From Myxococcaceae bacterium (GTDB lineage Bacteria > Myxococcota > Myxococcia > Myxococcales > Myxococcaceae): a DNA stretch of 44,920 nucleotides. Shown piece after piece: positions 7,613 to 44,920 of this stretch; the stretch's first letter is position 1; each line of letters begins with the position of its first letter. Made by a program: the position numbers and the translations under genes. The stretch lies in NCBI GenBank assembly GCA_019694575.1, contig JAIBBR010000027.1, positions 1 to 44,920 of the forward strand. The letters run 5' to 3'. Under the pieces are notes generated by a model. It was not told the DNA's origin. It searched no databases and saw nothing but the letters and a program-made list of their open reading frames with translations.

Positions 7613-7616
7613 CGTG

Positions 7617-8576
7617 CTACGTCAGCCAACCCTGGCGAATCATCACCAAGGTTGTTGACGCGACGAGCACCCACAGCACCCCCCCGAGCAGCAGCGGCCG
7701 CCCGCCAACGCTCTTAAGCGCCTCCCGTGAAACGCCCGCGCCTACCAAGAACAATGTCAGCACCAACAACTTGCGCGCCGCGCTGGCCACTTGCAGGCCC
7801 ACCCCATTGAGCCCCGGCACGTAGGTAACGGTGGCCGCGGCCGCAATGAAACCGACGATGAACCAGGGCAACTTCATTTTGCCCTTCGGTTCAGCTGCGT
7901 CGTCACCGCGAGGCCAGAAGCGCGCCAGCAACAGCGTGAGCGGCACGATCCACAAGGCGCGTGCGAGCTTCACTGTCGTGCCAACCGCGAGCGCGTGCTC
8001 TCCAAACTGCATCGACGCACCCACCACTGAAGACGTGTCGTGAATGGCGAGCGCGCTCCACAAACCGAACGCTTCAGCAGAAAGCCCCGCCCAGTGGCCA
8101 ATGGGTGGAAAAAGCACCAGCGCCGCCGCGTTGAGCAGAAACACCACCGCCAGTGAAATAGAAAGCTGTGTGCTTTTGGCTCCCACCACAGGCCCTGCCG
8201 CGGCAATCGCGCTGCCCCCACAAATGGCGGTGCCCACACCGATAAGCAGCGAAGTCGTGCGCTCTGTTTGCAGTACCTTCGCCAACAACCATGTTGCGCC
8301 GAGTGTCGTCGAGAGGGTGAGCAGCGTCTGCCCCACGCCTTGCGCACCCACCCGCGCGATGACCGTGAGCTGTGTGCCAGCTCCTAACCCCATGACGCAC
8401 GCTTGCAAAAGCACCGTCTGCAGCTTCTTCACCTGCGCGGGGAAAGGGTTGCCCAAGGTGAGCGAAAAGGCGATGCCGGCGACAAGGGCCATGGCCGCGG
8501 TCGCTGCCGGCAAGAGACAAGCCAAGGCCAGCAAAATGAAGACAGCCGCTTTGAGGCGAAATGGCACCGGCGTCAT
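7617..8576 (-). CDS. YeiH-family (UPF0324) multi-pass inner-membrane protein, putative anion exporter
   Basis: 319 aa with about nine to ten hydrophobic segments. The family signature is clear: GVGTAICGGSAIAAAGPVV in the middle, the preceding GLGAGTQL segment, and the later IHDTSSVVGAS and TLFLVGAGVS segments. Family members are annotated as putative sulfate exporters, partly on the basis of neighbouring sulfur genes. Here the neighbours are pcrA and adenosine deaminase, so context gives no substrate. The gene is transcribed divergently from adenosine deaminase, across a region holding a 9-bp inverted repeat. Family call is firm; the transport role is inferred from family annotation only. Confidence 0.9.
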   Translation of the reverse strand: MTPVPFRLKAAVFILLALACLLPAATAAMALVAGIAFSLTLGNPFPAQVKKLQTVLLQACVMGLGAGTQLTVIARVGAQGVGQTLLTLSTTLGATWLLAKVLQTERTTSLLIGVGTAICGGSAIAAAGPVVGAKSTQLSISLAVVFLLNAAALVLFPPIGHWAGLSAEAFGLWSALAIHDTSSVVGASMQFGEHALAVGTTVKLARALWIVPLTLLLARFWPRGDDAAEPKGKMKLPWFIVGFIAAAATVTYVPGLNGVGLQVASAARKLLVLTLFLVGAGVSREALKSVGGRPLLLGGVLWVLVASTTLVMIRQGWLT

Positions 8577-8578
8577 TT

Positions 8579-8637
8579 AGGGCCCGCGAAGGAATAAGTC
8601 GATCGCCCTCAAGCGCCGATCCATCCCGGCGGGCCCT
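8579..8637. repeat. Short inverted repeat in a divergent intergenic region
   Basis: AGGGCCCGC at 8579-8587 is an exact reverse complement of 8629-8637, with a 41-nt spacer. It lies between the divergent starts of the YeiH-type gene and adenosine deaminase, so an operator or leader hairpin is more likely than a terminator. GC-rich 9-mers can pair by chance, hence the low confidence. Confidence 0.35.
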
Positions 8638-8699
8638 CACCCAAATCGTCAAGGCACGTGCGTGAAGTTGCTGTCACCTACCGATTCGTGCCTTTAATC

Positions 8700-9875
8700 A
8701 TGACCATGGCATCGATTCGCGACGACGAGTTGCCGGACTCCACGGGTATACCTTCTACCGCGCGCCGCTTGGCTGGGCCGCCCACCATCGAAGTGCCGAA
8801 ACTCGAGGTGACGCAAGAGCTGCTCAAAGCGCTGCCCAAGACCGACTTGCACTGCCATCTCGACGGCAGCATGCGGCTGAAGACGATTCTTGAGCTCGCC
8901 GAAGCGCAAAAGGTGAAGCTGCCGGCCGACACCGAAGAAGGCCTCGCGCGCGCCATTCACATGGGCGAAGTCTGCAAGAGCCTCGAAGACTACCTGGTGG
9001 CCTTCGACGTCACGCTTTCGGTGCTGCAGACTGAAGAATCGCTCTACCGCTCGGCGTACGAGCTGGCCATCGACGCCGCCGCCGAAAACGTTCGCTATCT
9101 CGAGGTGCGTTATTCCCCCGCGCTGCACCAGCAAAAGGGAATGAAGATGACCACCATCATCGACGCGGTGCTCGAGGGTTTGCGCCAAGCCAAGCGCGAG
9201 AAGGGCATTAAATGTGGCCTCATCGTGTGTGGCATTCGGCACATGAGCCCCCAGACGTCAGTGCGTTTGGCCGAGCTGTGCGTGGCGTACAAAAACCGCG
9301 GGGTGATTGGCTTCGACTTGGCGGGCGCTGAAGTGAATTTTCCCGCTAAAGATCACAAAGACGCGTTTCAGCTCATCTTGAAGAACAACGTCAACTGCAC
9401 CGCGCACGCCGGTGAAGCATACGGGCCTGAGTCGATTGCCCAGGCCATTCATTTTCTGGGTGCGCACCGCATTGGCCACGGCACGCGGCTGCGCGAAGAC
9501 GGCGATTTGCTCAATTACATTAATGATCACCGCATTCCGCTCGAGGTGTGCCCCACTTCAAACGTGCAGACCGGTGTGTGCGCTGACTTGAAGAGCCACC
9601 CGCTCAAGTTCTATTTCGACTACGGCATTCGCGTCACCATCAACACCGATAACCGGTTGATTACCGACACCACGCTGACCAAAGAATATTGGGGCGCCCA
9701 CACTGAGCTCGGGCTTTCGCTCGAAGACCTCACCACCATTGTGGTCAGCGGCTTCAAGAGCGCGTTTCTGCCCTTTCGCGAGAAGCAAGACATGCTCAAA
9801 GCCATCAATTCAGAAATCGAGCAGACGCTGCAGAACTTTCAGCGCAAGCTCACCGCGGTGAAACGGCCCGCGTGA
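8700..9875 (+). CDS. add: Adenosine deaminase
   Basis: 391 aa from ATG 8700. Cytoplasmic zinc hydrolase converting adenosine to inosine in purine salvage. Metal and catalytic positions are visible: HCH in TDLHCHLDG (51-53), HAGE (His236, Glu239), HRIGHG (His256, His260) and NTDN (Asp317). The NTDN form is the bacterial variant of the usual Asp-Asp motif. The protein carries about 45 residues before the first catalytic motif, longer than most bacterial enzymes. A GTG at 8658 would lengthen it further, and an ATG at 8706 would shorten it slightly. The stop overlaps the start of the TlpA-like gene by 4 nt (GTGA). Confidence 0.95.
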   Translation: MTMASIRDDELPDSTGIPSTARRLAGPPTIEVPKLEVTQELLKALPKTDLHCHLDGSMRLKTILELAEAQKVKLPADTEEGLARAIHMGEVCKSLEDYLVAFDVTLSVLQTEESLYRSAYELAIDAAAENVRYLEVRYSPALHQQKGMKMTTIIDAVLEGLRQAKREKGIKCGLIVCGIRHMSPQTSVRLAELCVAYKNRGVIGFDLAGAEVNFPAKDHKDAFQLILKNNVNCTAHAGEAYGPESIAQAIHFLGAHRIGHGTRLREDGDLLNYINDHRIPLEVCPTSNVQTGVCADLKSHPLKFYFDYGIRVTINTDNRLITDTTLTKEYWGAHTELGLSLEDLTTIVVSGFKSAFLPFREKQDMLKAINSEIEQTLQNFQRKLTAVKRPA

Positions 9876-31866: not shown

Positions 31867-32076
31867 ATGGTTTCCCAGATACATGTGGTGGGTGACGAAG
31901 TGGCTGACGTCACCATTCCCGGTGCGTGCATGGTGTGCAAAGGCGAAGTGGCTTTGCGCATGACGGGCATGTCAGCCGCGCTCGTCTGCTTGAGCTGCCA
32001 TTTGATTACCCACCCCAAAGTCGAAGTCGGTACCGACAGCGTGCGACTCGATTACCGACCCCGCGCGTTGGTCTAA
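31867..32076 (+). CDS. Small double-CxxC (zinc-ribbon-like) protein
   Basis: 69 aa from ATG 31867. Two CxxC pairs (Cys21/24 in ACMVCKG, Cys41/44 in VCLSCHL) are 16 residues apart, enough for a compact zinc or redox site, with short strands either side. No signal peptide, so cytoplasmic. It could be a zinc-ribbon RNA- or protein-binding factor or an orphan metal-binding subunit. No Shine-Dalgarno is obvious. The stop overlaps the stop of the convergent triheme gene by 3 bp, so a shared transcript region is unavoidable. Confidence 0.72.
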   Translation: MVSQIHVVGDEVADVTIPGACMVCKGEVALRMTGMSAALVCLSCHLITHPKVEVGTDSVRLDYRPRALV

Positions 32077-32984
32077 GGCCAAACAATGCGGCCGGGAGCG
32101 TCGTTACGGCCTTGTTCGGTATGGCAGGTGTTGCAGTCTCCGTCGGTCTGCGGCGTCGTCATTGCCCGCACGCGGCCGTTGGCTTTCACCCGAGCCGTGT
32201 AAGGCATGGCAATGGTGGTGCGGGTGCTCGTCGACATGAAGTTGCCCGACGCGTTGACCATCAACGTCGCGGCCACTTTGCCCTGCGCGTCGATGATTTC
32301 GACCGTGCCTCCACTCGAGGGCACCACGCTGCGGCAGAGGTTCTTTTCGTGCAGCGAGGGGAACACGGTGCCCATGAAGAAAAAGGCCCTGCCGCGCTCT
32401 GAATCTCCGTTGGGGTTTTGCCCCTCGAAGTTTTGGCCCAAATGGCAGCTGCGGCAGGCGAACCCCGGGTTCATTGAAGCACTGCCGTCGTTGCCGCGGG
32501 TCCAGAAGGTGTTGGAGCTGCACACCGTGGGGGCGGGGCCTGCGTCGACCGGCTCAATCACGGTGACGCCGGCATCTGCTTCACCGCACCTACCGTCGGG
32601 CATGCCCTCGGCGACCCACGTCTCGAAGGCCGCTTTTTCTTCTTCGGTGGGCTGTGGGTAGCGCGCGGGAGGCATGCTCAAGGCCGTGTCGCGCATGCGA
32701 AGGGCAGAGCGTGCTCCGACGGTAACGCTGGGGTCGACTTGAGAGCGCTCGAGCAGGTTGGCGCGCGAAACCAGGGGTATCGGAGCGCTGTTCTTCAAGG
32801 GAGCCCCGTGGCACCCGTTACAACGGGTGTTGAGCAAGCGTGAAATGTCACACGGCATGCCGGGCAGGCTTTGGTCGACGGTATAGCCGCCTTCGAGCTT
32901 CGGAGCGCTATCGACGCCTTCTCCGCAACCTGTCGCTACAAGCACCCCAATCGGAAGCAATAACCAAACGTTTGAACGCGCCAT
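32073..32984 (-). CDS. Triheme c-type cytochrome lipoprotein with an internal Ig-like segment
   Basis: 303 aa. The signal ends in VATGC, acylated Cys20. Three heme-attachment motifs: CNGCH (55-59), CRSCH (177-181) and CNTCH (284-288). The first has an MPPARYP loop about 45 residues later, a likely distal Met. Between hemes 2 and 3 the GGTVEIIDAQGKVAATLMVNASG segment looks like a transthyretin/carboxypeptidase-regulatory-type beta domain. Unpaired cysteines at 45, 133, 155 and 217 may form disulfides. Location is periplasmic face or outer membrane. A terminator just upstream separates it from the YceI fusion, so it likely has its own promoter in 32985-33046. Confidence 0.87.
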   Translation of the reverse strand: MARSNVWLLLPIGVLVATGCGEGVDSAPKLEGGYTVDQSLPGMPCDISRLLNTRCNGCHGAPLKNSAPIPLVSRANLLERSQVDPSVTVGARSALRMRDTALSMPPARYPQPTEEEKAAFETWVAEGMPDGRCGEADAGVTVIEPVDAGPAPTVCSSNTFWTRGNDGSASMNPGFACRSCHLGQNFEGQNPNGDSERGRAFFFMGTVFPSLHEKNLCRSVVPSSGGTVEIIDAQGKVAATLMVNASGNFMSTSTRTTIAMPYTARVKANGRVRAMTTPQTDGDCNTCHTEQGRNDAPGRIVWP

Positions 32985-33046: not shown

Positions 33047-33073
33047 AAAAAGGGCCATGTGCGGTGGGCCCTT
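33047..33073 (-). terminator. Rho-independent terminator after the YceI-cytochrome gene
   Basis: On the minus strand AAGGGCC (33073-33067) pairs with GGCCCTT (33056-33050) around a 10-nt loop and runs straight into a T-tract (33051-33047). The stem begins in the stop codon of the YceI-cytochrome gene. Classic intrinsic terminator layout. Confidence 0.8.
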
Positions 33074-34442
33074 ACTTCTGACTCAGTGTTTTGCGTTTGC
33101 TGCGATCGAAAATGGGCGGCGCTACCTTGGGGTGGGTGAGAAACGTGACGATGTCGCGCAAGTCAGTGTCGGGCAGGCGCTCGATGCTGAAGGGAGGCAT
33201 GAAGCGGTTGCCGTGGCCTTCCAGTCGGCGCACGCGCTTCACCACCCAGTCGGCTTCATACAACCCCGGCGCCCACACCGGGCCCACCCGACCGTCTAAG
33301 TGACAAGTCATGCAGTACTTGTCAGCGAGCTCTTTGCCGCGCACCGGGTCTCCGCCGGCCGGGTCTCGAATAGACGATTCGTAGGTGCGGTACAGCGTGC
33401 GGTAATCGAGCTCAGGTGAAGGGTCGGGGCTAATGGCTTCGATGAAGGCGAGCAGCGCGCTGCGTTGCGCTTCGGTCAAACCTTGCCCTTGCATGAAAAT
33501 CTTCTGGCAAATGTCGGCTGCTTTTCCCGCGTCGGTGGCAAAGCCGTTCCAAAAACGGGGGCGCTGCGCCGAATTGAACAGCGTGTGGGCGGGCCGCGCA
33601 TAACCGTCGGCCTGCACCAGCCCCGCCCGCTCGTCGCCGCGGGCATGGCAGTGCGCGCAGGTGAGCTTGTTGGTGCTGCCTCCTATTTCGGGTGAGTAGT
33701 AGTAGTGCTCACCTTTGGCTTTGGGCTCATCGCCTTTGAAGGCGAACGTTTTGTAAATTTGCGGTTTCGGTTTGCGCGGCGGGCGCGGCTTGGGTGGTGG
33801 GGCCAGCGGCAACACTTCAGTCACTGTCGGTTGCAGCGGCACTTTTGGGGTCGGCGCGCTCGCCACTGACGTCGTGGTGTCGGTGAACGCCACGTCGAAA
33901 AAAACGTCGGCCACGTCGCCCAATTTGAAGAAGAGCCGCTGCGGGCGCTGAATGTTGTAGTCAGCGAATGGCACCGCGAATTTGCCGCTCACCCACAGTG
34001 TGCCGTCGGCGTCTAAACGTGCCCGCGCGGTAAACCGCACCGCCCGCCGAACGCCGTGAAGCTCGAAGGTGCCCACTGCTTCGCCTTCAGCGCCTTGACC
34101 CTTTGCAATCGCCGTCGCTGAGGGTCGCTCGATTTTGTCGATGGTGAGCAGCGCGAAAGGAAAACGACTGGTCTGCAGAAACTCTTCGCGCATGTCGGCA
34201 TCACGCGCGGGAATACCCGTGCGTACGGTGTCGAGCGGCAGGCCCACCACGCCATGCCCGTTGGCCCAGGCGGCGGGGTCTAAGTCTAAATGGCCTTCGA
34301 CCGAGCGGCTTTCGCCCTTCACGTCGTCAATTGGCCCTTCAACGGTGAAGCGAATCGAGCCATGCGGGCCCGGCGCGACGCGGTAGCTGCCGGCGAACAC
34401 TGCTTGACTAAATAGACACAACGGCAAGAGCAAGCGCTTCAT
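33072..34442 (-). CDS. YceI domain fused to a diheme cytochrome c region
   Basis: 456 aa from ATG 34442. A signal peptide (cleavage after VFA) is followed by a YceI-like lipocalin-type beta-barrel to about residue 190 (SIRFTVEGPIDDVKGE, EFLQTSRFPFALLTI, GTFELHGVRRAVRF), a Pro/Lys-rich linker (about 195-230), then cytochrome motifs CAHCH (262-266) and CMTCH (377-381) with possible distal Met in HGNRFMPPFS. YceI proteins bind isoprenoid lipids such as ubiquinone-like chains, so a quinone-to-heme electron path within one chain is conceivable. Shine-Dalgarno AGGTGA (34451-34456) is 8 nt before this ATG and overlaps the kinase stop; GTG 34454 is the alternative start. Confidence 0.9.
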   Translation of the reverse strand: MKRLLLPLCLFSQAVFAGSYRVAPGPHGSIRFTVEGPIDDVKGESRSVEGHLDLDPAAWANGHGVVGLPLDTVRTGIPARDADMREEFLQTSRFPFALLTIDKIERPSATAIAKGQGAEGEAVGTFELHGVRRAVRFTARARLDADGTLWVSGKFAVPFADYNIQRPQRLFFKLGDVADVFFDVAFTDTTTSVASAPTPKVPLQPTVTEVLPLAPPPKPRPPRKPKPQIYKTFAFKGDEPKAKGEHYYYSPEIGGSTNKLTCAHCHARGDERAGLVQADGYARPAHTLFNSAQRPRFWNGFATDAGKAADICQKIFMQGQGLTEAQRSALLAFIEAISPDPSPELDYRTLYRTYESSIRDPAGGDPVRGKELADKYCMTCHLDGRVGPVWAPGLYEADWVVKRVRRLEGHGNRFMPPFSIERLPDTDLRDIVTFLTHPKVAPPIFDRSKRKTLSQK

Positions 34443-34450
34443 GTTTGGTT

Positions 34451-34456
34451 TCACCT
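34451..34456 (-). promoter_or_regulatory. Ribosome-binding site deciding the YceI-cytochrome start
   Basis: AGGTGA on the minus strand, 8 nt upstream of ATG 34442, overlapping the kinase stop codon. It favours ATG 34442 over the in-frame GTG 34454, which would have the site overlapping its own codon. The arrangement couples translation to the kinase gene. Confidence 0.6.
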
Positions 34457-35806: not shown

Positions 35807-36265
35807 TTACGGGGCCTCGACGATGTCGCCGCGCATTGGCCCGAGCAACGCGAGCAGCTCGCCTTTTTCGGTCGCCGGTACTTTGAAGGCGTCGAGCGTG
35901 GCCACCAAATGGCCCACCACGATATCGAACTGGGCGTGGGTGATGTTCATGCCGGTGTGCACCGTTTTCATGTCGCGGCCCGAATATGTGCACGGGCCGC
36001 CGGTCGCGTAGCAAACCAACTCGACGAGCCGTTTGCGCAAGCGGGGCACGTGGCTGCCGGCGAAGGTGGCGTTGATGCGCTCGTCTTTCGCCAAGCGGCC
36101 CATGAAGTCGTCAATCACCGCTTCGATGGCCGGTTGGCCCCCGAGGCGCTGGTAGAGCTTGGCGTTTGCGGCCGGCGGGTTGGGCGCCGAAAAAGCCGCT
36201 TGCGGTGTGGTGGCGCAGCCAAAGGCACATACAGAGAACGCGGTCAGCGTGAGCAAAAGGCGCAT
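35807..36265 (-). CDS. Exported (probable lipoprotein) group I truncated haemoglobin
   Basis: 152 aa from ATG 36265. The globin 2-on-2 fold spans about 37-150: LYQRLGGQPAIEAVIDDF, then LVCYATGGPCTYSGRDM, proximal His103 in the KTVHTGMNITHAQFD block, and the following VVGHLVATLD. The N-terminus is a signal sequence with a lipobox-like AFGC (Cys17); Phe at -2 is atypical, so a type I signal is possible. Truncated haemoglobins bind O2 or NO and are usually cytosolic, so an exported copy is unusual. First gene of the operon haemoglobin, kinase-RDD, YceI-cytochrome. It is divergent from ogt. The frame runs on to 36865 but that part is antisense to ogt. Confidence 0.9.
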   Translation of the reverse strand: MRLLLTLTAFSVCAFGCATTPQAAFSAPNPPAANAKLYQRLGGQPAIEAVIDDFMGRLAKDERINATFAGSHVPRLRKRLVELVCYATGGPCTYSGRDMKTVHTGMNITHAQFDIVVGHLVATLDAFKVPATEKGELLALLGPMRGDIVEAP

Positions 36266-36358
36266 GTCGAAGCGAAGGTAGCAAACCGTTGCCTGAGCGG
36301 TGTTTGTAAAAGCGAAAACGTTGATCGCGAACGCGTGGCTTGCGAAGGTGGCGCGCGA

Positions 36359-36880
36359 ATGGAATCGAAACAAAACTACATCGTGATGAAGAGCCCGCTG
36401 GGGCCGCTGATGTTGACCAGCAATGGAGAAGCGCTTACTGGCCTGCACATGACGCCGCACCCGCCACGCGGCAGTGGGGTGGCCCGAGAAGACGAGGTTC
36501 TGAAGGCGACCAAGCTGCAGCTGCGCGACTATTTCAAAGGCACGTTGAAGGCCTTCGAAGTGCCGCTGCTCTTTAGTGCCGGCACCGCGTTTCAGCAGAA
36601 AGCGTGGCAGTGCCTGACGCAAATTCCCTACGGAGTAACGTGGACCTACCAGCAGCAGGCCAAGCGGCTGGGAGATGCAAAAGCCACCCGCGCGGTCGGT
36701 TCGGCGAATGGGCAGAACCCCATTTCCATCATCGTGCCTTGTCACCGCGTGGTGGGCGCCAACGGCTCGTTGATTGGGTACGGCGGCGGTTTGGAGCGTA
36801 AGCGCAAGTTGCTGCGGCACGAGTCGAAGTTCGCCGGGCCGGGGCGGTTCAAAGATTCGCCGCAATTGTCGTGGTGGTGA
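36359..36880 (+). CDS. ogt: Methylated-DNA--protein-cysteine methyltransferase
   Basis: 173 aa from ATG 36359, preceded by GAAGG about 10 nt upstream. Suicide repair of O6-alkylguanine. Active-site motif IIVPCHRVVG with Cys128, the DNA-binding Arg finger ATRAVGSANG (Arg111), and the family block IPYGVTWTYQQQAKRLG are all present. The N-terminal domain is short, as in Ogt rather than the Ada fusion. The much longer open frame from 35573 overlaps the haemoglobin and kinase genes on the other strand and is spurious. Divergent from the haemoglobin gene, convergent with the FG-GAP gene. Confidence 0.96.
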   Translation: MESKQNYIVMKSPLGPLMLTSNGEALTGLHMTPHPPRGSGVAREDEVLKATKLQLRDYFKGTLKAFEVPLLFSAGTAFQQKAWQCLTQIPYGVTWTYQQQAKRLGDAKATRAVGSANGQNPISIIVPCHRVVGANGSLIGYGGGLERKRKLLRHESKFAGPGRFKDSPQLSWW

Positions 36881-36962: not shown

Positions 36963-39900
36963 TTAAAAATTCAACGGGGTGACGAAGGCGCTGCCATTCG
37001 CCGTGCCCGTTCGGTAGCTGATGGGCGCGCCAATACCGAGCAGTGCTTTCAGCGGCCCAGACGCAACAGAAAGACTTAAGTCTTGCCCGAAGTTGCCGCG
37101 CTCACGGTGGTCTCCCAAGAACATCATTACCGGCTCGCGTGCGCCCGAGAGGCCCGGCCCGCCCGCGAAAACGAAAACCGCTCCCGTGCCTTCGCCATTC
37201 ACATTGGCCCGTGACGCGCCCACCACCAAATCGACGATGCCGTCGCCGGTGAGGTCGACATTGCCTGCCAACGCCCGGCCAAATTGCGGCGCCCGGTCTT
37301 TGTAAACCAAGGGAATCGGCGTCAACCCGCCACCCCTCATCGGCACCAACGCGCTGCCTTGCGCCGGCCGCAGTGCCGCGATTTGCATTTTGTCGTAGAG
37401 CAGCACCGTGGGCTGCGTCACGCCCTCAAAGGGGTACAACCGCGCAGAGACGGCGATGAACTCGCGGTTGTCTCCCAGCACCTTGCCCACTGCCGCCGCG
37501 GCGTAACCGAACTGCACTGAGTTGATGCCCACGTCGATTTCGCCCGAGATGTACATGTAAGCCGGTTGCGTGTGCGCGCCGCATGCGCCGTTCGGGTCGA
37601 AGCCGAAGACGATAATCAGCCCCTGCGGAGTCACCAGGGGGTCTACCAGCCCGGAATTGAGGTTTCCGTAGCGCACGCCGACTTCGTCGCAGCCGTCGCC
37701 GTCGAGGTCGCCCAATGCCATCGGGCCGAAAGTGCCGCGGTTGTGCTGCGGCAACGTGAAGAGCGGCCCACACACCGCGGTCAGCTTCGACAGCGTCGCG
37801 TCAGCCGGCGGGCGGCCGGGAAAAATGTCGAGCCCCGAATTTCGCGTCAGCGCGATGTCTTCGTTGCCGTCATTGTTGAAATCGAAACCGCCGGCAATAC
37901 CCGTGCGTGCCAGGCCTGCGCGCAAGCAGGTGCCGCCATCGCACTCGCCATTAATCAGCTCGGGCGCCCATACCCGGTAGCCTTCTTTGAAGGTGCCGTC
38001 GCTCTGTGAAAGCTGCACCGTGACACCGCCCAACGCTTTCACGGGGCTCATCGTGCAACCGGCATCGAGCGGCAACTGCGCGTACTCGGTGTTGGTGGGC
38101 AACGGCGTTTGAAAACCGGGCAACGCAATCGCCAAGTCGGGGCGGCCGTCGCCGTTGAAATCGGTGAGCGCCACATCGACGCCCGAAAAGCGGCCTCCGA
38201 ATAACTGCTTGCCGTCGCGCACGTACGAGCCCACCGCGCCCTCGTGCACCACCAACGGCTGGTCACCTTTGCCCACTTCGTAAGCGATGGTTTGACCCAC
38301 CGAGGTGTCGTTGCCGAAAGCGTTTTGGTCAGGGCCCGAGTACCAAGGTGCACCCACCAGCACCCGCGGCTTACCGGCGATGGTGGCGGTTTCGAGGCTC
38401 ACGCCGAACTGTTCAGACGCCAAGTGGGCGGGCACGTCGGCGCTCGTCTTCGCCCACGCGTCGATGGGGCCGGTGCCGAGAAACGCGTCGACACGGCCGG
38501 TGAAATCGCCTCCGTCGGTGGTGGCGCGTGATGCGACCGTGACGAGCCCCAAAGTGCCTGCCGGCCGCCACGCGGCCAACGCCGTGCCCAACGTGTCGGC
38601 CCGGTCTCCCGCGCGAAATTCGAACGCTTTGTTGCGCACCGTGCCCTGCGGCAGGCTGTGAAGCCCAAACACCGCAATCTTGCCGGTCTGCAGCAAGGTC
38701 GGCGCCGGCGGGTTGTGCGCGTACGGAGCACCCACCACCAACGACAAACCCGCGCCGTCTTCAAGCTCTGCCAACGTGAAAGAGCGCCCCATCTGCCAGC
38801 CGGCGGTTTCACCGTAGAAGCGCGCGTAAGCGTCGGTGCGCTCCAAAGTCGTGGCGGCGGTGGGCACGGGTGAAGAAGTGGGCCCGCGCCCAGTGAGGTT
38901 GAAGAGATAGACGCCTCCGCCGTTGCTGCCGCCTGCGGTGCCGCCGTCAGCGCTCAAGTTGGGCGAGTCAGCGCGGTCGAGCGCCGTCAACAACATCGCG
39001 GGGTGGTCCAATTCTTTGGGTACGTAACCCAAGCGCAGTGTGCCTTCGTCGCCGTCAGCGAAATTCACCGGCAACACATACAGGTCGGGCTTTTCGACGA
39101 AGCGCGGTGCCGTGACGCGGGCGAAGTGCACGGCCACCGCGGGTTGGGTGCGGTTGGGGCTGCCGCCGTCAGGCAACGGAGCCGAAGTCACACCGTTGAA
39201 CGCCAAGTCGGCCAAACCGTCGCCGTCGAAGTCGCCTACCGCGAGCGAACGGCCAAAACGCAGATTGTGGGTGGCCTTGAACGTCTTGTCGGGCGCCAAG
39301 TCCCAACCGCCCAAACGAAACGCGCTCTGGTCAGCGATGCCGCCGCCGCGTTGACCAAGAAAAACGTCAACCACGCCGCGCGACGAAATTTGAGCGGTCG
39401 GCGCCAAGTCAGCCAGCGGGCTCGTCACCACCAAGTCTTTGATGCCGTCTGAATTGACGTCGAAAATCGCCAGTGCCGCGCCGAAGTTTCCACCGCGCGC
39501 CACGCCGCTCAAGTCGCTGCGCATCTTCTTGGGGCCTGCAGACGTGAAGAGGTACAGCTGCACCACGCCCGAGTCGCCCCCCGTCACGTCAGCCCCGGGT
39601 GCGCTCACCGCCAAGTCGTCGCGCCCGTCGCCGTCTAAGTCGCCCGCCGCCATGACCGCGCCCAGCTGCGCGGTGTCGCTTTCACCCAGCAAGGTCCACG
39701 TTGCCATCGAGGGGAGCCCCGCCGCCGAACCTTTGTAGATGAAGACCGCGCCCCCCGAGGGAAAGGAAAGGTCGCTTTCGGCGATGCCCACCGCCACGTC
39801 GGCAAAACCGTCTCCGTCGAAGTCACCTGTCACCACCGAAGCCACGTCGGTTAAGTGCCCATGCGGGCGGCCCTCGCGCTTCAGTTCTTCGAGAATGCGC

Positions 39901-40673
39901 ACCGTGACGCTCGTTTTTTCGCCGGTGTAGCGGTCGACGCCTTCGAGCTGCGCCGTGCCCGTGTCGCCCGCGGCCGAGATGAACGTGTTGCCCATGACCG
40001 AGCCAGGGCCCGAAAGCTTGGACCACGTCACTTGCCCGCTGCCGTTGGCCACACCCAACGGCGCTTGCGCCCCCGCGGGAATGCCCAACTTGGGAGGCAC
40101 CGCGCGCAACTGCGCCGACGCGCTGACCGCGTATTGCAACAGCACTTGCTCGCCGGTGCCGGTGTCTTCGACGGTGATGAGGTCTAACCCGTTGGTGGCA
40201 CCCGCCACGTAGTTGCCGGTGGCACTGAGGCTGCCGCCTGAGCCGAGTGCCTGCGCGGTGAAGCGGGCTGTGCCCAACGCACCCGAGACGGTGATGGTGA
40301 ACGCGGTGGCGGGCTTCACCGTGGCGCGGCTGGGCGCGACGTAAAAAGCGCCGCGCACTTCCACCGTGGTGGTGGCTTCGTTGCCGCAGTCGTCGATGAC
40401 GGTCAGCGTGTCGGTGGCTGGAGTGGGCCCCGCGATGAAACGGCCTTCGCGCAGTTCTCCATTTGAGCCGCCCACCGCCGCGCTGTAGCTGTAATGACCG
40501 CTACCGCCCGATGCGGTGAGCGCCACCGGCGCATTGACGTGCACCAAGGGGGGCACTGCTTCGAGCTTCACTTCTGACAGCCCGTCGCAATGGTCAATGG
40601 GGGGCGGCTTGGGCGGCAACGCGTTGTCGTCGCACGCGGCCAACAGCATGCAGCCAAGCAAAGCGGCTCTCAC
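36963..40673 (-). CDS. Very large FG-GAP (integrin-type beta-propeller) lipoprotein
   Basis: 1236 aa from GTG 40673, which overlaps the preceding stop (GTGA) and gives a signal ending in LLAAC, acylated Cys14. The first 250 residues contain two or three Ig-like/PKD-like beta domains (VALTASGGSGHYSYSA, FTITVSGALGTARFTA). From about 275 onward come at least eight calcium-type FG-GAP repeats: DFDGDGFAD, DLDGDGRDD, DVNSDGIKD, DFDGDGLAD, DFNGDGRPD, DFNNDGNED, DLDGDGCDE and DLTGDGIVD. These build one or two seven-bladed propellers, suited to binding a ligand or partner at the cell surface. No enzymatic motif is seen. The longer frame to 40841 is an artefact. Last gene of the exported redox operon. 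Confidence 0.9.
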   Translation of the reverse strand: MRAALLGCMLLAACDDNALPPKPPPIDHCDGLSEVKLEAVPPLVHVNAPVALTASGGSGHYSYSAAVGGSNGELREGRFIAGPTPATDTLTVIDDCGNEATTTVEVRGAFYVAPSRATVKPATAFTITVSGALGTARFTAQALGSGGSLSATGNYVAGATNGLDLITVEDTGTGEQVLLQYAVSASAQLRAVPPKLGIPAGAQAPLGVANGSGQVTWSKLSGPGSVMGNTFISAAGDTGTAQLEGVDRYTGEKTSVTVRILEELKREGRPHGHLTDVASVVTGDFDGDGFADVAVGIAESDLSFPSGGAVFIYKGSAAGLPSMATWTLLGESDTAQLGAVMAAGDLDGDGRDDLAVSAPGADVTGGDSGVVQLYLFTSAGPKKMRSDLSGVARGGNFGAALAIFDVNSDGIKDLVVTSPLADLAPTAQISSRGVVDVFLGQRGGGIADQSAFRLGGWDLAPDKTFKATHNLRFGRSLAVGDFDGDGLADLAFNGVTSAPLPDGGSPNRTQPAVAVHFARVTAPRFVEKPDLYVLPVNFADGDEGTLRLGYVPKELDHPAMLLTALDRADSPNLSADGGTAGGSNGGGVYLFNLTGRGPTSSPVPTAATTLERTDAYARFYGETAGWQMGRSFTLAELEDGAGLSLVVGAPYAHNPPAPTLLQTGKIAVFGLHSLPQGTVRNKAFEFRAGDRADTLGTALAAWRPAGTLGLVTVASRATTDGGDFTGRVDAFLGTGPIDAWAKTSADVPAHLASEQFGVSLETATIAGKPRVLVGAPWYSGPDQNAFGNDTSVGQTIAYEVGKGDQPLVVHEGAVGSYVRDGKQLFGGRFSGVDVALTDFNGDGRPDLAIALPGFQTPLPTNTEYAQLPLDAGCTMSPVKALGGVTVQLSQSDGTFKEGYRVWAPELINGECDGGTCLRAGLARTGIAGGFDFNNDGNEDIALTRNSGLDIFPGRPPADATLSKLTAVCGPLFTLPQHNRGTFGPMALGDLDGDGCDEVGVRYGNLNSGLVDPLVTPQGLIIVFGFDPNGACGAHTQPAYMYISGEIDVGINSVQFGYAAAAVGKVLGDNREFIAVSARLYPFEGVTQPTVLLYDKMQIAALRPAQGSALVPMRGGGLTPIPLVYKDRAPQFGRALAGNVDLTGDGIVDLVVGASRANVNGEGTGAVFVFAGGPGLSGAREPVMMFLGDHRERGNFGQDLSLSVASGPLKALLGIGAPISYRTGTANGSAFVTPLNF

Positions 40674-42214
40674 GGCAACATGCCTCCGTTCACCCAGCGC
40701 ACGATGCGTGAAATCAACGTCGGGTCGAGCGGCCCGTCGGCGGGCATGCGCTTGTCTTTGACCGCGGTGACAATCAATGCGCCCTCTCGCTTCCACAATT
40801 CGTAGACTGACAGGTCGCGCCCCGGGCCGGTGACGTGGCACTTGGCGCAGCGCGCTTCGAAGAGCGGTTTAATGTCGGCTTGCCAGGCCACCGGGCCGCT
40901 CAAGCCCGCTTTGAGCTCGAAGTGCACCCGGCGCGTCGCCAGCGCGCCGTCTTTGTAAACCGCAATCGCTGACAGCGTGTGCGGCCCGTCGTTGTAGCCC
41001 GTGAGTGAGAAGGGCTTGGGCTCGCCGTTGTCGGCGCCCCCCAATGAAAACACCCATTGCCCGGTGTACGCGCCGGTGCCCGGCAGGGCGTCGTCGAAGC
41101 GCACTGGCGATTCTTCACCCTCGTCGATGCGGTAACGCACTGCTTGCACTTCGCGCTGATGAGAGACCTGAACTGTCACGACCGCTTCAGTGCCGTACAC
41201 TTCTTCGTTTTGAAAAATGCCCGACAGCCGTGGCACCCAGCCGTTAGAGATGACGTGGCTTTGCTCTCTTTCACGCACCCAGGCAGTACCGGCCGCGTCG
41301 ACTGCTTGCAGTGTCAAACCGGCAGCGAGATTTTTGGCTTCACCCCACGCACCTTCGTCAGCGTCGTACCGGTACAGCGCGTCGTCTACGCGCAGCCAAG
41401 CAAAGCGGCCGGCCGAAAGCAATTGCTCAGGAGCGTGGGCCAGCGCGTAACGAAACCACGTGCCGCCACGAAAGCGCCACAGGTTGCCCGCTTGGGTGAT
41501 GGCCCACAGTTCTCCCGCTGACTTGGGTGACGGCGCAATACCCGCCAACGCCAACACGCCGCCTTTTAAATTCTCAAGCGACAGCCCGCTCTCTTTAATC
41601 AGGTAGCCGCCCGCTGACTGACGCTCGGCGCAGTGAAGCTTTTCGGCGCCCGCGAACCACACGGCTTCTGCGCCTGACGGGCCCGGCGCGACTGCGAGCG
41701 AAGTAATGCCTTCCAAGTGGGCTCCGCTGGAAGTGAGCTCGAAGAGCTGGCCGTTTTCCAATCGAAACAAGCCGCTCTGGTGCGCAAGCCACGCCACGCC
41801 GTCAGCACCGAGCCCCGTCGCCACCAAACCGTCAGCGCTGAGCCGCGACTGCCAGGGCGGCGCGATGACCCAGCCTGATTCAGCCACGAAGAGCCCCGTA
41901 GACGTGCCTAGCAACGCCGAGAACGGCCCCAGTGGCCATACCGCTGTGACAGGGCCAGGCGCCACTGGGTTGCCAGGGTGAGCCAGGAGCGGCGCTTGGG
42001 AGCCGTCAGCGCGCAACCGCACCCCTTGCCCCGCTGTGCCCGCGAAAATGCCGCCGCCGCGTTGGTCGGCAAACCCGGGCGCCGACGAAATCGCGCTCGA
42101 CGACAGCAGCACGCTGGCTTCGAAAGGCGTGGGCGAAATTGCTTCAGAAACAACCCCCGTGCCGCACGCGCACAGCCCCAGGCCCGTCAGAAGAAAGAGA
42201 AAAGACGAATGCAT
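40670..42214 (-). CDS. Lipoprotein with propeller-like repeats and a C-terminal monoheme c-type motif
   Basis: 514 aa. Signal sequence ends in GLCAC (probable acylated Cys17). Residues about 45-340 show repeated short strands ending in Trp or Leu plus Gly/Ala (GVAWLAHQSGLFRLENG, ELWAITQAGNLWRF, RFAWLRVDDALYRYD), compatible with an irregular beta-propeller. Residues about 350-440 look like an Ig-type strand block. The C-terminus has one heme site CAKCH (456-460), then DKRMPADGPLD with a likely distal Met, as in cytochrome-c-like modules found in planctomycetal and myxobacterial surface proteins. It overlaps the FG-GAP start and follows the DUF1501 gene by 9 bp. Role unknown. Confidence 0.83.
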   Translation of the reverse strand: MHSSFLFLLTGLGLCACGTGVVSEAISPTPFEASVLLSSSAISSAPGFADQRGGGIFAGTAGQGVRLRADGSQAPLLAHPGNPVAPGPVTAVWPLGPFSALLGTSTGLFVAESGWVIAPPWQSRLSADGLVATGLGADGVAWLAHQSGLFRLENGQLFELTSSGAHLEGITSLAVAPGPSGAEAVWFAGAEKLHCAERQSAGGYLIKESGLSLENLKGGVLALAGIAPSPKSAGELWAITQAGNLWRFRGGTWFRYALAHAPEQLLSAGRFAWLRVDDALYRYDADEGAWGEAKNLAAGLTLQAVDAAGTAWVREREQSHVISNGWVPRLSGIFQNEEVYGTEAVVTVQVSHQREVQAVRYRIDEGEESPVRFDDALPGTGAYTGQWVFSLGGADNGEPKPFSLTGYNDGPHTLSAIAVYKDGALATRRVHFELKAGLSGPVAWQADIKPLFEARCAKCHVTGPGRDLSVYELWKREGALIVTAVKDKRMPADGPLDPTLISRIVRWVNGGMLP

Positions 42215-42223
42215 GAAGTCGCT

Positions 42224-43606
42224 TTAGCCGAGCAAGGCCTTAATCGGCTCAACGCGGGTGATGCTGTAGTCGAGCTGTGCCGAGGCCAAAATCGTCGCCA
42301 CGATGTCTTCGGGCGTGAGGTTGACGCCGCTTTCGTCGGGTAACCCAGTGGCCACGTTCACCCGCACCGGCGTCATGCCCACGTCGCCCGTTTTGCCGAA
42401 CACCCCGTTGTGTTTGATGCCCGCGCCCACCAGCAGGCAGCTCGATGAAATATGGTGGTCTCTGCCCCCTGAGCCATTGAGCAGCGGCGTGCGGCTGAAC
42501 TCAGAGAACACCGCGATGGTGGTGTGGTCCATGAAATTGCCGCCCATCGGGTGAGCCGAGGTGCGCAAGTCTTGCACCAAGTCTCCCAGCGCGTTCCACC
42601 CCAGGCGCTGCTGCTGCGCGTGGGCCAAGCTGGTGCCGAAGTGGGTGTCGAGCCCGCTGGCGAGCTGAATCGTCACACACTGACTGATGCCTTGTTTGAG
42701 CGCGGTGGCCACCAACGCGGCTCGCCCCGCCGCGGTGTCATAAGGGCCTGTCGCGGGCAAACCGTACGCTGCGCGCACGGCCGCGTTCTGCGCTTGCTCG
42801 AAACGAAACGAAGCGTCGAGCTTGGCGCTCTGCACCGACTGCATTTGATTGCGCGCGTCGCGGTATTGGCCCACCAGACCGCGCGTGTCGTAGGCCTGCG
42901 CTTCGCAGGTCACGGTTTCTCCGCGCAAGTTGACGAGCTGCTTTTCGATTTCACTGTTCAACGCGGTGGGGCTGGGCGCCAAGGTGAGCAACAAGTCAGC
43001 CGAGCGCGAAACACCGAGCGCGCTGGCCGCGCCCGGGTAGCGATCGTTGTAGCTTTCGACGCCGTACGCGATTGAAGGCACCGGCACGGTGGGCTTCATT
43101 TGCCCCACGATTTCAGTCGCCACCGACGAGCCGCGCGCGGCAGAGCCGATGGGCGGCTTGCCGGTGAGAAAGTAGCGGTAACCCACTTCGTGGGCCACGG
43201 TATTCATATTGATGCCGCGCACCACGGTGCACAAATCGTAATGGTCGGCCATGCGGCCAATCGCGGGGCCGAATTGCATCGTGGGAGCCGCGGAGCCCAT
43301 GCGCGTGGCCGGCGTCACCAACGCAGTGGGAAACGTCGCGTCGTTGGCGAGCAGGTTGTAGGCAGGCTGAATGCGCGTGTCTGACAAACGCTCGTTGGTA
43401 AACACCGCGGGGTCGCGCGGGTCTAAGCTGAGCAGCACGTCCCACCCGCCTTGAAAGTAGGCGAAGACGAAGCAGCGCCCCGCGGGCGCGAGGTCTGCCG
43501 CTTGGGCAAAGGCACGAAACGGCGTCACCCCGAGCAGCATCGAGCCGCCGAACCCGGCAGCGGCTTTCAAGAAGGAGCGGCGTGAGTCGAAGCCATTCTT
43601 TTTCAT
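42224..43606 (-). CDS. TAT-exported DUF1501 protein
   Basis: 460 aa, with SD AGGAG (43616-43620) 9 nt before the ATG. Twin-arginine signal SRRSFLKAAAG (8-18). The DUF1501 signature is clear, a sulfatase/phosphatase-superfamily-like fold of unknown activity: VFAYFQGGWD, GINMNTVAHEVGYRYFLTGK, VTIQLASGLDTHF, TTIAVFSEFSRTPLLNGSGGRDHH, and SSCLLVGAGI. In planctomycetes and myxobacteria such genes sit beside cytochrome-like DUF1549/DUF1553 or DUF1588-type genes; the same pairing is seen here. Exported folded, it probably carries a metal cofactor, though none is identifiable. Between two lipoprotein genes in the operon. Confidence 0.94.
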   Translation of the reverse strand: MKKNGFDSRRSFLKAAAGFGGSMLLGVTPFRAFAQAADLAPAGRCFVFAYFQGGWDVLLSLDPRDPAVFTNERLSDTRIQPAYNLLANDATFPTALVTPATRMGSAAPTMQFGPAIGRMADHYDLCTVVRGINMNTVAHEVGYRYFLTGKPPIGSAARGSSVATEIVGQMKPTVPVPSIAYGVESYNDRYPGAASALGVSRSADLLLTLAPSPTALNSEIEKQLVNLRGETVTCEAQAYDTRGLVGQYRDARNQMQSVQSAKLDASFRFEQAQNAAVRAAYGLPATGPYDTAAGRAALVATALKQGISQCVTIQLASGLDTHFGTSLAHAQQQRLGWNALGDLVQDLRTSAHPMGGNFMDHTTIAVFSEFSRTPLLNGSGGRDHHISSSCLLVGAGIKHNGVFGKTGDVGMTPVRVNVATGLPDESGVNLTPEDIVATILASAQLDYSITRVEPIKALLG

Positions 43607-43622
43607 CGCGGGTCACTCCTTT

Positions 43623-44303
43623 CTAATAGGTAAAAAAACGTGGGTCGGTCATCAGCGCGACGCAAATGCCTCCCCAGGCTTGCTGCCGTGGAGCCACCGC
43701 GGTGGCGGGAGGCACGATATTTTTTGTGGCGTTGGCGAGCGCTTTGAAAGCCGTCACCCATTTGTCGAGCTCGGGCCCGGCGAGCGGCTCGCCCCAGAAA
43801 CGCGTCGACAGGTAGACCATGTTGTTGCGCACGTCGGCGTCGGCCAGGGTGGTCAAATCGCTCGCGGTGGGTACCAGGGGGCTCAGCACCCGGGCGCCGG
43901 CATCAGCCACGCCCAAGTCATTCAGCGCGGCGGCGAGACAGACTTCGCGCGCTCCGTCTTCAAGAAACTTGGTGAACACCATGTTCGGCACCGTCGACTC
44001 GGTGTTGATGAGCGCGTAGTCGGCTTGCCCGAGCGAAGTGGCCAGGTTGTCGATTTGGCTCCACTGACGGCCGGTGGTGATTTGAATCGACGCTTTGAGC
44101 TGCGCCACGGTGAGGCGACGCGGCGCGCGGCCCACGTGACCGCCTTGGTCGTCAGGGTCAGGCAAGTGCGTCAAGGGCGGGTGGTTGCCCATGTCGACGG
44201 GTGTCAGGTCAGCCGGCGTCTCTCCCGGTTTGGGCTTGTTGCAGCCAAGAGCGAACACGCAGAGCGCCGCGCCGAGCAACGTAGAGCGAAGGGTCGACGT
44301 CAT
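43623..44303 (-). CDS. Lipoprotein resembling a split DUF1587/DUF1592-type N-terminal module
   Basis: 226 aa from ATG 44303, which shares one base with the preceding stop (TAATG). The signal ends in ALGC (Cys21). The segment RLTVAQLKASIQITTG resembles the opening helix of proteins in the DUF1587/1592/1588 series (the LT-R-EY-N-TVRDLLG element), but the rest is shorter than those and has no heme motif. Two Cys (EVCLAAAL, GGICVALM) may form a disulfide. The end (GICVALMTDPRFFTY) resembles the closing element of the same series. I infer it works with the cytochrome-like protein encoded just upstream. The reading frame extends to 44453 without signal-peptide logic. Confidence 0.7.
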   Translation of the reverse strand: MTSTLRSTLLGAALCVFALGCNKPKPGETPADLTPVDMGNHPPLTHLPDPDDQGGHVGRAPRRLTVAQLKASIQITTGRQWSQIDNLATSLGQADYALINTESTVPNMVFTKFLEDGAREVCLAAALNDLGVADAGARVLSPLVPTASDLTTLADADVRNNMVYLSTRFWGEPLAGPELDKWVTAFKALANATKNIVPPATAVAPRQQAWGGICVALMTDPRFFTY

Positions 44304-44920
44304 TAGTCGATTCTCCGGTACGCGTCGGTGGTGACAATGAGCTTCACCAAGTTTTTGTAGGCGCGGCCTTGCGCGGTCCACTTTTGGGTCAGCGTTTCTA
44401 AGTACAGGGCTTGTTCTGGCATCGTCATGGGGCGGCCCAAGAGCTGGTTCCACACGTTTTTTACCGCGCAGCGCTCTAAATCGCCCGATTGCATCATGCG
44501 TTCCACCAACAACCGGGGCCCGCCCGCGATGTTCGGCTCTTCGTCAGGCGTGCGGTAGAGGTACGTCTTGAGCAGCCCGAGCGAAGCGGCGCCGTCGCCG
44601 TCGAACGCTTGCATCACGTAGTTGGCGCATTCGTTCTCGCAGCTGATGTTGCCCGCCAGCGCGCACTCACGGCATTTGGTGTCAAAGCGGGGGAAACGCA
44701 GCGGGTCTAAGTAAGTGGCATTGCGTTCGCCGAAGCGGCCCCAGTGCGCACCGACCGGCTCGATGGTGGCGTGGCAGTAATTGCAGCCGCAACGCTTGGC
44801 CAAGTTGTTTTCGCGGTTGCACGCATCGTCAGCCGCGGGCACCTTGGCTCCGGCGGGCGGCGCGAAGTGCTTGCACAAGAATGCTTCGTAAAATTCGTTC
44901 ACCCGCGCACGCTGGGTGGG
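44303..44920 (-). CDS. Cytochrome-like protein of the DUF1588/DUF1592 type (C-terminal part, cut by window end)
   Basis: 206 codons in the window; the 5' end lies beyond 44920. An apparent start at 44902 is probably internal, because the frame stays open upstream. Heme-type motif CNYCH within CGCNYCHATIEPVGAHWGRFGE matches the CxxCHxxIDPLG-F-xF block of DUF1588-type proteins. It is unusually Cys-rich: further CRECA, SCENECA and RCAV elements may bind metal or form disulfides. The end (QLLGRPMTMPEQALYLETLTQKW, IVTTDAYRRI) is typical of this series. First visible gene of the exported operon continuing through 36963. Redox partner or substrate unknown. Confidence 0.82.
   Translation of the reverse strand, partial: PTQRARVNEFYEAFLCKHFAPPAGAKVPAADDACNRENNLAKRCGCNYCHATIEPVGAHWGRFGERNATYLDPLRFPRFDTKCRECALAGNISCENECANYVMQAFDGDGAASLGLLKTYLYRTPDEEPNIAGGPRLLVERMMQSGDLERCAVKNVWNQLLGRPMTMPEQALYLETLTQKWTAQGRAYKNLVKLIVTTDAYRRID

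Follow-up and report, generated by a model that had tools for sequence, protein, structure and literature searches.

Do the five closely spaced genes at one end of a Myxococcaceae contig, which encode proteins with CxxCH motifs, a DUF1501 domain and beta-propellers, belong to a single system, and if so, what kind of system is it? The window analysed here covers all 44,920 nucleotides of contig C41, from a Myxococcaceae assembly of 5.28 Mb, and its right end is the contig end. Re-reading the sequence recovered all five genes, in consecutive order on the minus strand, at window positions 36963-44920:

Gene 1, 44303-44920, minus strand: 3′ fragment (205 aa) of a PSCyt/PSD-type exported monohaem protein, covering the PSCyt3 (DUF1588)/PSD2 (DUF1585) C-terminal region, with the motif CGCNYCH.
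Gene 2, 43623-44303, minus strand: 226-aa lipoprotein with lipobox ALGC, probably PSD5-like (DUF1595).
Gene 3, 42224-43606, minus strand: 460-aa Tat-exported DUF1501 protein with a predicted alkaline phosphatase superfamily fold.
Gene 4, 40670-42214, minus strand: 514-aa lipoprotein with an N-terminal beta-propeller and, at the C-terminus, a class I cytochrome c domain with one haem site (CAKCH ... RMPADGP).
Gene 5, 36963-40673, minus strand: 1236-aa FG-GAP (integrin-alpha-type propeller) lipoprotein with a GTG start at 40673, the last gene of the operon.

These coordinates and the contig end agree with a preliminary description of the locus as five minus-strand genes, the first of them cut, with two gaps of 16 and 9 bp. 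The same description counted three junctions that share bases; only two do, with TAATG common to genes 1 and 2 at 44305-44301 and GTGA common to genes 4 and 5 at 40673-40670, and the remaining two junctions are the gaps. Because the end of the window is the end of the contig, gene 1 is genuinely cut. At the opposite side, a convergent ogt-type gene on the plus strand ends at 36880, 82 bp short of gene 5, which sets the FG-GAP gene as the 3′ end of the operon. In Myxococcus xanthus (locus L054), the gene 1 orthologue (7300-9324, 674 aa) starts at 7300 and is divergent from a DUF420 gene, which marks the 5′ end there. With both boundaries placed in this way, the operon comprises five genes. A scan of the locus for promoters and terminators gave signal no better than that of shuffles. 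A haem oxygenase gene lies beyond the DUF420 gene in M. xanthus. A role in anti-phage defence was rejected, PADLOC having given no match.

To what extent the five genes travel together was assessed among 96 Myxococcaceae genomes, where a DUF1501 orthologue was defined by at least 60% identity or as a fragment at a contig edge. By this definition the orthologue is present in 81 of the 96 genomes. The FG-GAP gene accompanies it in 80 of these 81 genomes and the monohaem gene in 79, and neither is found in the other 15 (0/15). The corresponding Fisher P values for co-occurrence with DUF1501, with relatedness left uncorrected, are ~1e-16 for the FG-GAP gene and ~1e-15 for the monohaem gene. As had been expected in the preliminary description, the set therefore co-occurs in other genomes. 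Loci located by tblastn came from Myxococcus (M. xanthus included), Corallococcus, Archangium, Pyxidicoccus and Citreicoccus, and the FG-GAP gene lies within 18 of them. Wherever the contig reaches far enough, these loci keep the order PSD protein (gene 1), gene 2, DUF1501, monohaem protein, FG-GAP protein, except for locus L035 of a close relative (G048, a 78%-complete metagenome-assembled genome), in which unrelated sequence follows the first three genes and neither the monohaem nor the FG-GAP gene is present. A second genome (G027) lacks only the monohaem match, and its DUF1501 match is a short contig-edge fragment. The FG-GAP protein occurs in nearly all of the large-genome Myxococcaceae surveyed. 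The conservation of both content and order across the family leads us to reject a chance neighbourhood, and, judged by these genomic comparisons, the five genes are one conserved locus and one operon.

The identity of gene 1 was established through its relatives, whose full-length versions span approximately 650-680 aa and carry a Sec-type N-terminus without a lipobox. The M. xanthus orthologue matches PSD2 at 28.3 bits against a Pfam cut-off of 25.8 and shows weak matches to PSCyt2, PSD4 and PSCyt3 in the expected order; the window fragment by itself scores 18.0 bits for PSD2, which is under the cut-off. Residues 346-672 align with fused PSD proteins of the source genome (hhalign 98.6%, E 7.6e-16), and the region matched is the PSD4-PSCyt3-PSD2 half of those proteins. 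A single CxxCH motif is invariant among the orthologues, and a predicted structure (pTM 0.34) was too poor for use. The upstream continuation in M. xanthus and other genomes bears out the placement of the CxxCH protein in this same locus, since it is the first gene of the operon there. The candidate explanation that gene 1 is an unrelated upstream gene is ruled out, in that a full-length orthologue opens the same operon in relatives.

Orthologues of gene 2 match PSD5 (DUF1595) weakly and under the cut-off (best E 0.01, with 3 of 18 members matching), and when gene 2 is compared with the fused proteins, it aligns to their PSD5 region with an hhalign probability of 63% and an E value of 6.9e-5. 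These profile matches give moderate support to gene 2 as the putative supplier of the PSD5 part. An RRLT motif in gene 2 appears PSD3-like by eye only. By inspection, nearly all full-length gene-2 matches stand directly before a DUF1501 match; one (G184:C348) is on a contig without a listed DUF1501 match.

Gene 3 matches Pfam DUF1501 (PF07394) at 89.7 bits (cut-off 27), and the RR of its Tat signal is invariant when 18 divergent members of the family are aligned. A sequence search of solved structures returned nothing credible for DUF1501, DUF1552 or the PSD proteins. An AlphaFold2 model of gene 3 built from 13 sequences is of low confidence (pLDDT 53.5, pTM 0.61) and therefore supports a fold class only. 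The leading Foldseek matches to this model belong largely to the alkaline phosphatase (AlkP) superfamily, with no E value reaching significance. After VIA re-alignment, the leading rows are again AlkP superfamily members, with Z up to 10.9 over 221 residues, and the matches include nucleotide pyrophosphatases, sulphatases and PafA/SPAP phosphatases. By this computation, DUF1501 is assigned an alkaline phosphatase superfamily fold on a low-confidence model.

AlkP superfamily enzymes possess a two-metal site with a nucleophile, and the order of residues in DUF1501, D ... T ... D-x-H ... D-H, resembles that site. D56, T136, H139, D320, H322, D383 and H384 are each conserved in at least 17 of the 18 divergent DUF1501 homologues. 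The late third histidine of the superfamily, which is a metal 1 ligand, corresponds to H412 in Escherichia coli phosphatase. This ligand was not identified in the 18-protein DUF1501 alignment. DUF1501 is like NPPs, PafA/SPAP and sulphatases in fold, and its order D, T, D-x-H, D-H resembles their two-metal site with a threonine nucleophile; it differs from them in that a late third histidine ligand was not found and in having no solved relative by sequence search. As read from the alignment, DUF1501 keeps most of the expected AlkP metal and nucleophile residues, and it is likely to act as a metal-dependent hydrolase or transferase, although we know of no activity for this family.

In gene 4, the propeller region gives profile matches to solved sensor-kinase beta-propellers (4a2l, E 1.1e-6), and the C-terminal domain gives profile matches to cytochrome c6/c552. 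The CxxCH motif is invariant in 15 divergent homologues, most of which also have an axial Met-Pro (MP). Cytochrome_CBB3 is matched by 13 of these 15 homologues at E values up to 0.1, with the window protein under the cut-off. Gene 4 is computed from these matches to be a propeller lipoprotein whose C-terminus is a class I cytochrome c with one haem. Gene 5 exceeds the FG-GAP cut-off of 22.1 bits by a wide margin (122 bits, E 6e-36, seven stretches) and matches integrin alpha propellers with an E value of 4.2e-8. It is single copy and adjoins gene 4 where contigs allow.

Lipoboxes are present in genes 2, 4 and 5. In M. xanthus, a lysine at position +2 directs lipoproteins to the inner membrane, and an alanine at +7 directs them to the matrix (PMC3222651). 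In the three window lipoproteins, the residues at +2 are N, G and D, and those at +7 are G, S and P. Because none has Lys +2 or Ala +7, the M. xanthus sorting rule predicts that the products of genes 2, 4 and 5 reside in the outer membrane.

What system do these parts compose? The preliminary description correctly named the DUF1501 protein, the monohaem lipoprotein and the FG-GAP protein, and it missed the PSCyt/PSD pieces in genes 1, 2 and 4 and the AlkP fold. Since genes 1, 2 and 4 match pieces of fused proteins, we read the homology as one polypeptide elsewhere corresponding to separate genes here. The five genes very probably encode the planctomycete-type PSCyt/PSD-DUF1501 system in split form. 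The set is a variant of an already known, uncharacterised system in which PSCyt/PSD proteins are paired with a Tat-exported DUF1501 protein. We take DUF1501 to be the uncharacterised partner family found beside the PSCyt1-PSCyt2-PSD1 proteins of planctomycetes and Verrucomicrobia. The PSCyt/PSD domains were first described in Rhodopirellula, where a PSD1/PSCyt2 gene has been discussed among common stress-response genes (PMC2754498). In Verrucomicrobia, PSCyt/PSD genes adjoin two unknown families, their function is not known, and the PSCyt proteins are sometimes fused to carbohydrate-binding or protein-interaction domains (PMC5615132).

Several known arrangements can be compared with the operon. 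The source genome has 12 PSD2 matches over the cut-off and three weaker ones, including window gene 1 (about 14 loci). Two of its fused lipoproteins carry PSD3-PSD5-PSD4-PSCyt3-PSD2, all over the cut-off, beside a Tat-exported DUF1552 protein (HXXSHH). These fused PSCyt3/PSD proteins resemble the operon in their homologous domains, single CxxCH, export and Tat partner, whereas in the operon the domains are divided among two or more genes, the haem lipoprotein is separate and the partner is DUF1501 rather than DUF1552. The PSCyt1-PSCyt2-PSD1 systems share with the operon a DUF1501 partner and the PSCyt2-like N-terminus of gene 1, and PSCyt elsewhere occurs with propeller or binding domains. In contrast to them, gene 1 is PSD4-PSCyt3-PSD2 with no full PSD1, and separate proteins supply the cytochrome, PSD5-like and propeller parts.

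Contig C181 of the source genome has another DUF1501 locus, which encodes in a row a PSD protein of 589 aa, a 334-aa lipoprotein and a DUF1501 protein. The lipoprotein has a CxxCH near its N-terminus and the gene-2 domain at its C-terminus (i-E 2.4e-15), and the locus therefore supports a link between the PSD, gene-2, haem and DUF1501 parts. This locus differs from the operon in that it has three genes, CxxCH is fused to the gene-2 domain, propeller and FG-GAP parts are absent and its DUF1501 protein is more divergent. Many large Myxococcaceae genomes likewise have a second locus that matches the C-terminal half of the gene-2 profile.

Outside Myxococcaceae, the order PSD, gene 2, DUF1501 recurs in seven other Myxococcota families (f7, f16, f17, f20, f21, f25 and f26) at approximately 40% identity. 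The monohaem gene is usually upstream of the PSD gene in those families; it is downstream of the trio in Myxococcaceae. A single five-part locus (L062) was seen outside Myxococcaceae, and it is rearranged, with the FG-GAP gene divergent from the monohaem gene and with FG-GAP similarity that spans profile positions 42-503 only. The trio without the FG-GAP gene is more widespread than the five-part set. Because the FG-GAP protein occurs mainly in Myxococcaceae, it may be an accessory.

To our knowledge, none of the five has a known biochemical function, and the substrate and reaction proposed here are therefore guesses. In the preferred model, the five products would assemble in the periplasm, with the three lipoproteins as outer-membrane anchors, and the propellers of genes 4 and 5 may hold a polymer or glycoconjugate. 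DUF1501, with its putative two-metal site and threonine nucleophile, would remove or transfer a phosphate or sulphate group on the held polymer, and the two haem proteins might serve as electron carriers for a coupled oxidative step or pass electrons on to the respiratory chain. Taken by itself, this mechanism is doubtful. The split PSCyt/PSD-DUF1501 identity and the mechanism, joined in one statement, we hold tentatively, with the balance tipped somewhat against the whole. The surface complex performing oxidative chemistry on a polymer, which the preliminary description put forward, is a possible candidate reading.

The operon might instead serve surface adhesion or the matrix, with the FG-GAP lipoprotein binding exopolysaccharide or a partner cell, the other products being structural or processing proteins and DUF1501 being catalytically weak or inactive. 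The integrin-type propeller of gene 5, the near-universal FG-GAP gene of large-genome Myxococcaceae and the FG-GAP repeats of the Vibrio cholerae matrix proteins Bap1 and RbmC (PMC4551309) all fit this reading. However, the haem sites and DUF1501 active-site residues are conserved, the trio without FG-GAP is the more widespread form and no window lipoprotein carries the +7 alanine that is the M. xanthus matrix signal (PMC3222651), which leaves adhesion improbable. To the same degree improbable is periplasmic electron transfer or redox sensing, wherein the monohaem proteins would belong to a respiratory or stress-linked chain and DUF1501 would act on a small molecule. Consistent with such a chain are the class I cytochrome c domain of gene 4, the divergent DUF420 gene with the haem oxygenase gene beyond it in M. 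xanthus and the Rhodopirellula stress-response discussion of PSD1/PSCyt2 (PMC2754498), yet two large propeller lipoproteins are unexpected in a simple electron chain.

Two merged units are a distinctly improbable explanation, in which the functional system would be the PSD-gene 2-DUF1501 trio, and Myxococcaceae would have gained the monohaem and FG-GAP genes for an unrelated or loosely related role. The trio stands by itself in L035/L006 and L060, the monohaem gene changes sides between families, and the one FG-GAP gene seen outside Myxococcaceae is divergently oriented. Nevertheless, both added genes track the DUF1501 orthologue almost perfectly within Myxococcaceae, most distant loci have the monohaem gene next to the trio, and at the C181 locus a single protein combines a CxxCH domain with the gene-2 domain.

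The Cellvibrio proteins Cbp2D and Cbp2E (YceI, c-type cytochrome, DUF1587) are likewise exported and combine PSD-family with c-type cytochrome domains; they are polysaccharide-linked candidates for electron donors to lytic polysaccharide monooxygenases (LPMOs), whereas the operon has neither YceI nor a carbohydrate-binding module. That the haem proteins here feed an LPMO or other oxidase encoded elsewhere while the propellers dock on polysaccharide is highly improbable: the c-type cytochrome domain of Cbp2D, which also has a DUF1587 domain, reduces LPMOs in vitro (PMC8981238) and Verrucomicrobia PSCyt genes can carry carbohydrate-binding domains (PMC5615132), but LPMO_10 (PF03067) is absent from the source genome and, among the 81 genomes with the operon, from 28 (about one-third), which makes a dedicated donor role unlikely, and the DUF1501 enzyme would be left without a role. 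Cbp2D is nonetheless the closest lead to function that comes from experiment.

Returning to the split PSCyt/PSD-DUF1501 system, we consider it unlikely, if conceivable, that the operon represents a new kind of extracytoplasmic enzyme assembly, in which an AlkP-fold hydrolase works with a pair of haem c proteins and a pair of propellers that bind a polymer, and as such the genetically accessible version of the PSCyt/PSD systems of planctomycetes, verrucomicrobia and myxobacteria. Many PSCyt/PSD proteins are paired with DUF1501 or DUF1552, and the literature found describes them as having no known function. In this operon each part has its own gene, and the locus is present in single copy in most Myxococcaceae, including M. 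xanthus, in which genetics is routine. It is therefore possible in M. xanthus to delete, tag and assay the parts one at a time, which fused proteins do not allow. The locus matters chiefly because it lets the PSCyt/PSD-DUF1501 problem be tested in an experimentally tractable organism.

The complete Myxococcus-type operon, its gene order unchanged, is present in locus L052 (BNCN01000002.1), a record titled Comamonas sp. KCTC 72670, and the record is therefore probably mislabelled. Immediately upstream of the M. xanthus operon are a divergent DUF420 gene and a gene for haem oxygenase (L054:5888-7220). All five parts also occur in a distant member of the Myxococcota (L062:5326-16001), where their arrangement is different and a calcineurin-like phosphoesterase gene lies near the DUF1501 end. 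In the nearest relative, MAG CTSoil_096, the first three genes are retained (L035:3932-7842, L006), with unrelated sequence at the expected place of the monohaem and FG-GAP genes, an absence that may reflect either loss or misassembly.

The genome under study itself carries a second DUF1501 locus:

Contig C181, L004:7295-11632, minus strand: genes for a PSD protein, a lipoprotein with CxxCH and gene-2 domains, and a DUF1501 protein

The PSD protein of this locus has 589 amino acids, the 334-aa lipoprotein joins a CxxCH domain and the gene-2 domain in one polypeptide, and the 518-aa DUF1501 protein is divergent. About a dozen PSD2 (DUF1585) proteins above the cut-off are encoded elsewhere in the assembly (L080-L087 and others). 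A Tat-type partner gene adjoins the PSD gene in all five loci that were fully read (L080-L084), and both of the partners scanned among these are DUF1552 genes.

Three other genes of the window lie beyond the operon:

35807-36865, minus strand: truncated-haemoglobin-type globin (PF01152)
33072-34454, minus strand: fusion of YceI and cytochrome c domains (PF04264, PF00034, PF13442)
32073-32984, minus strand: exported protein that contains several CxxCH motifs and weakly matches cytochromes

The globin, whose true start is probably near 36265, seems to have a lipoprotein signal, MRLLLTLTAFSVCAFGCATTP, an unusual feature among globins. The YceI-cytochrome c gene lies a few genes away from the operon, and its layout is reminiscent of the Cellvibrio redox proteins Cbp2D and Cbp2E.
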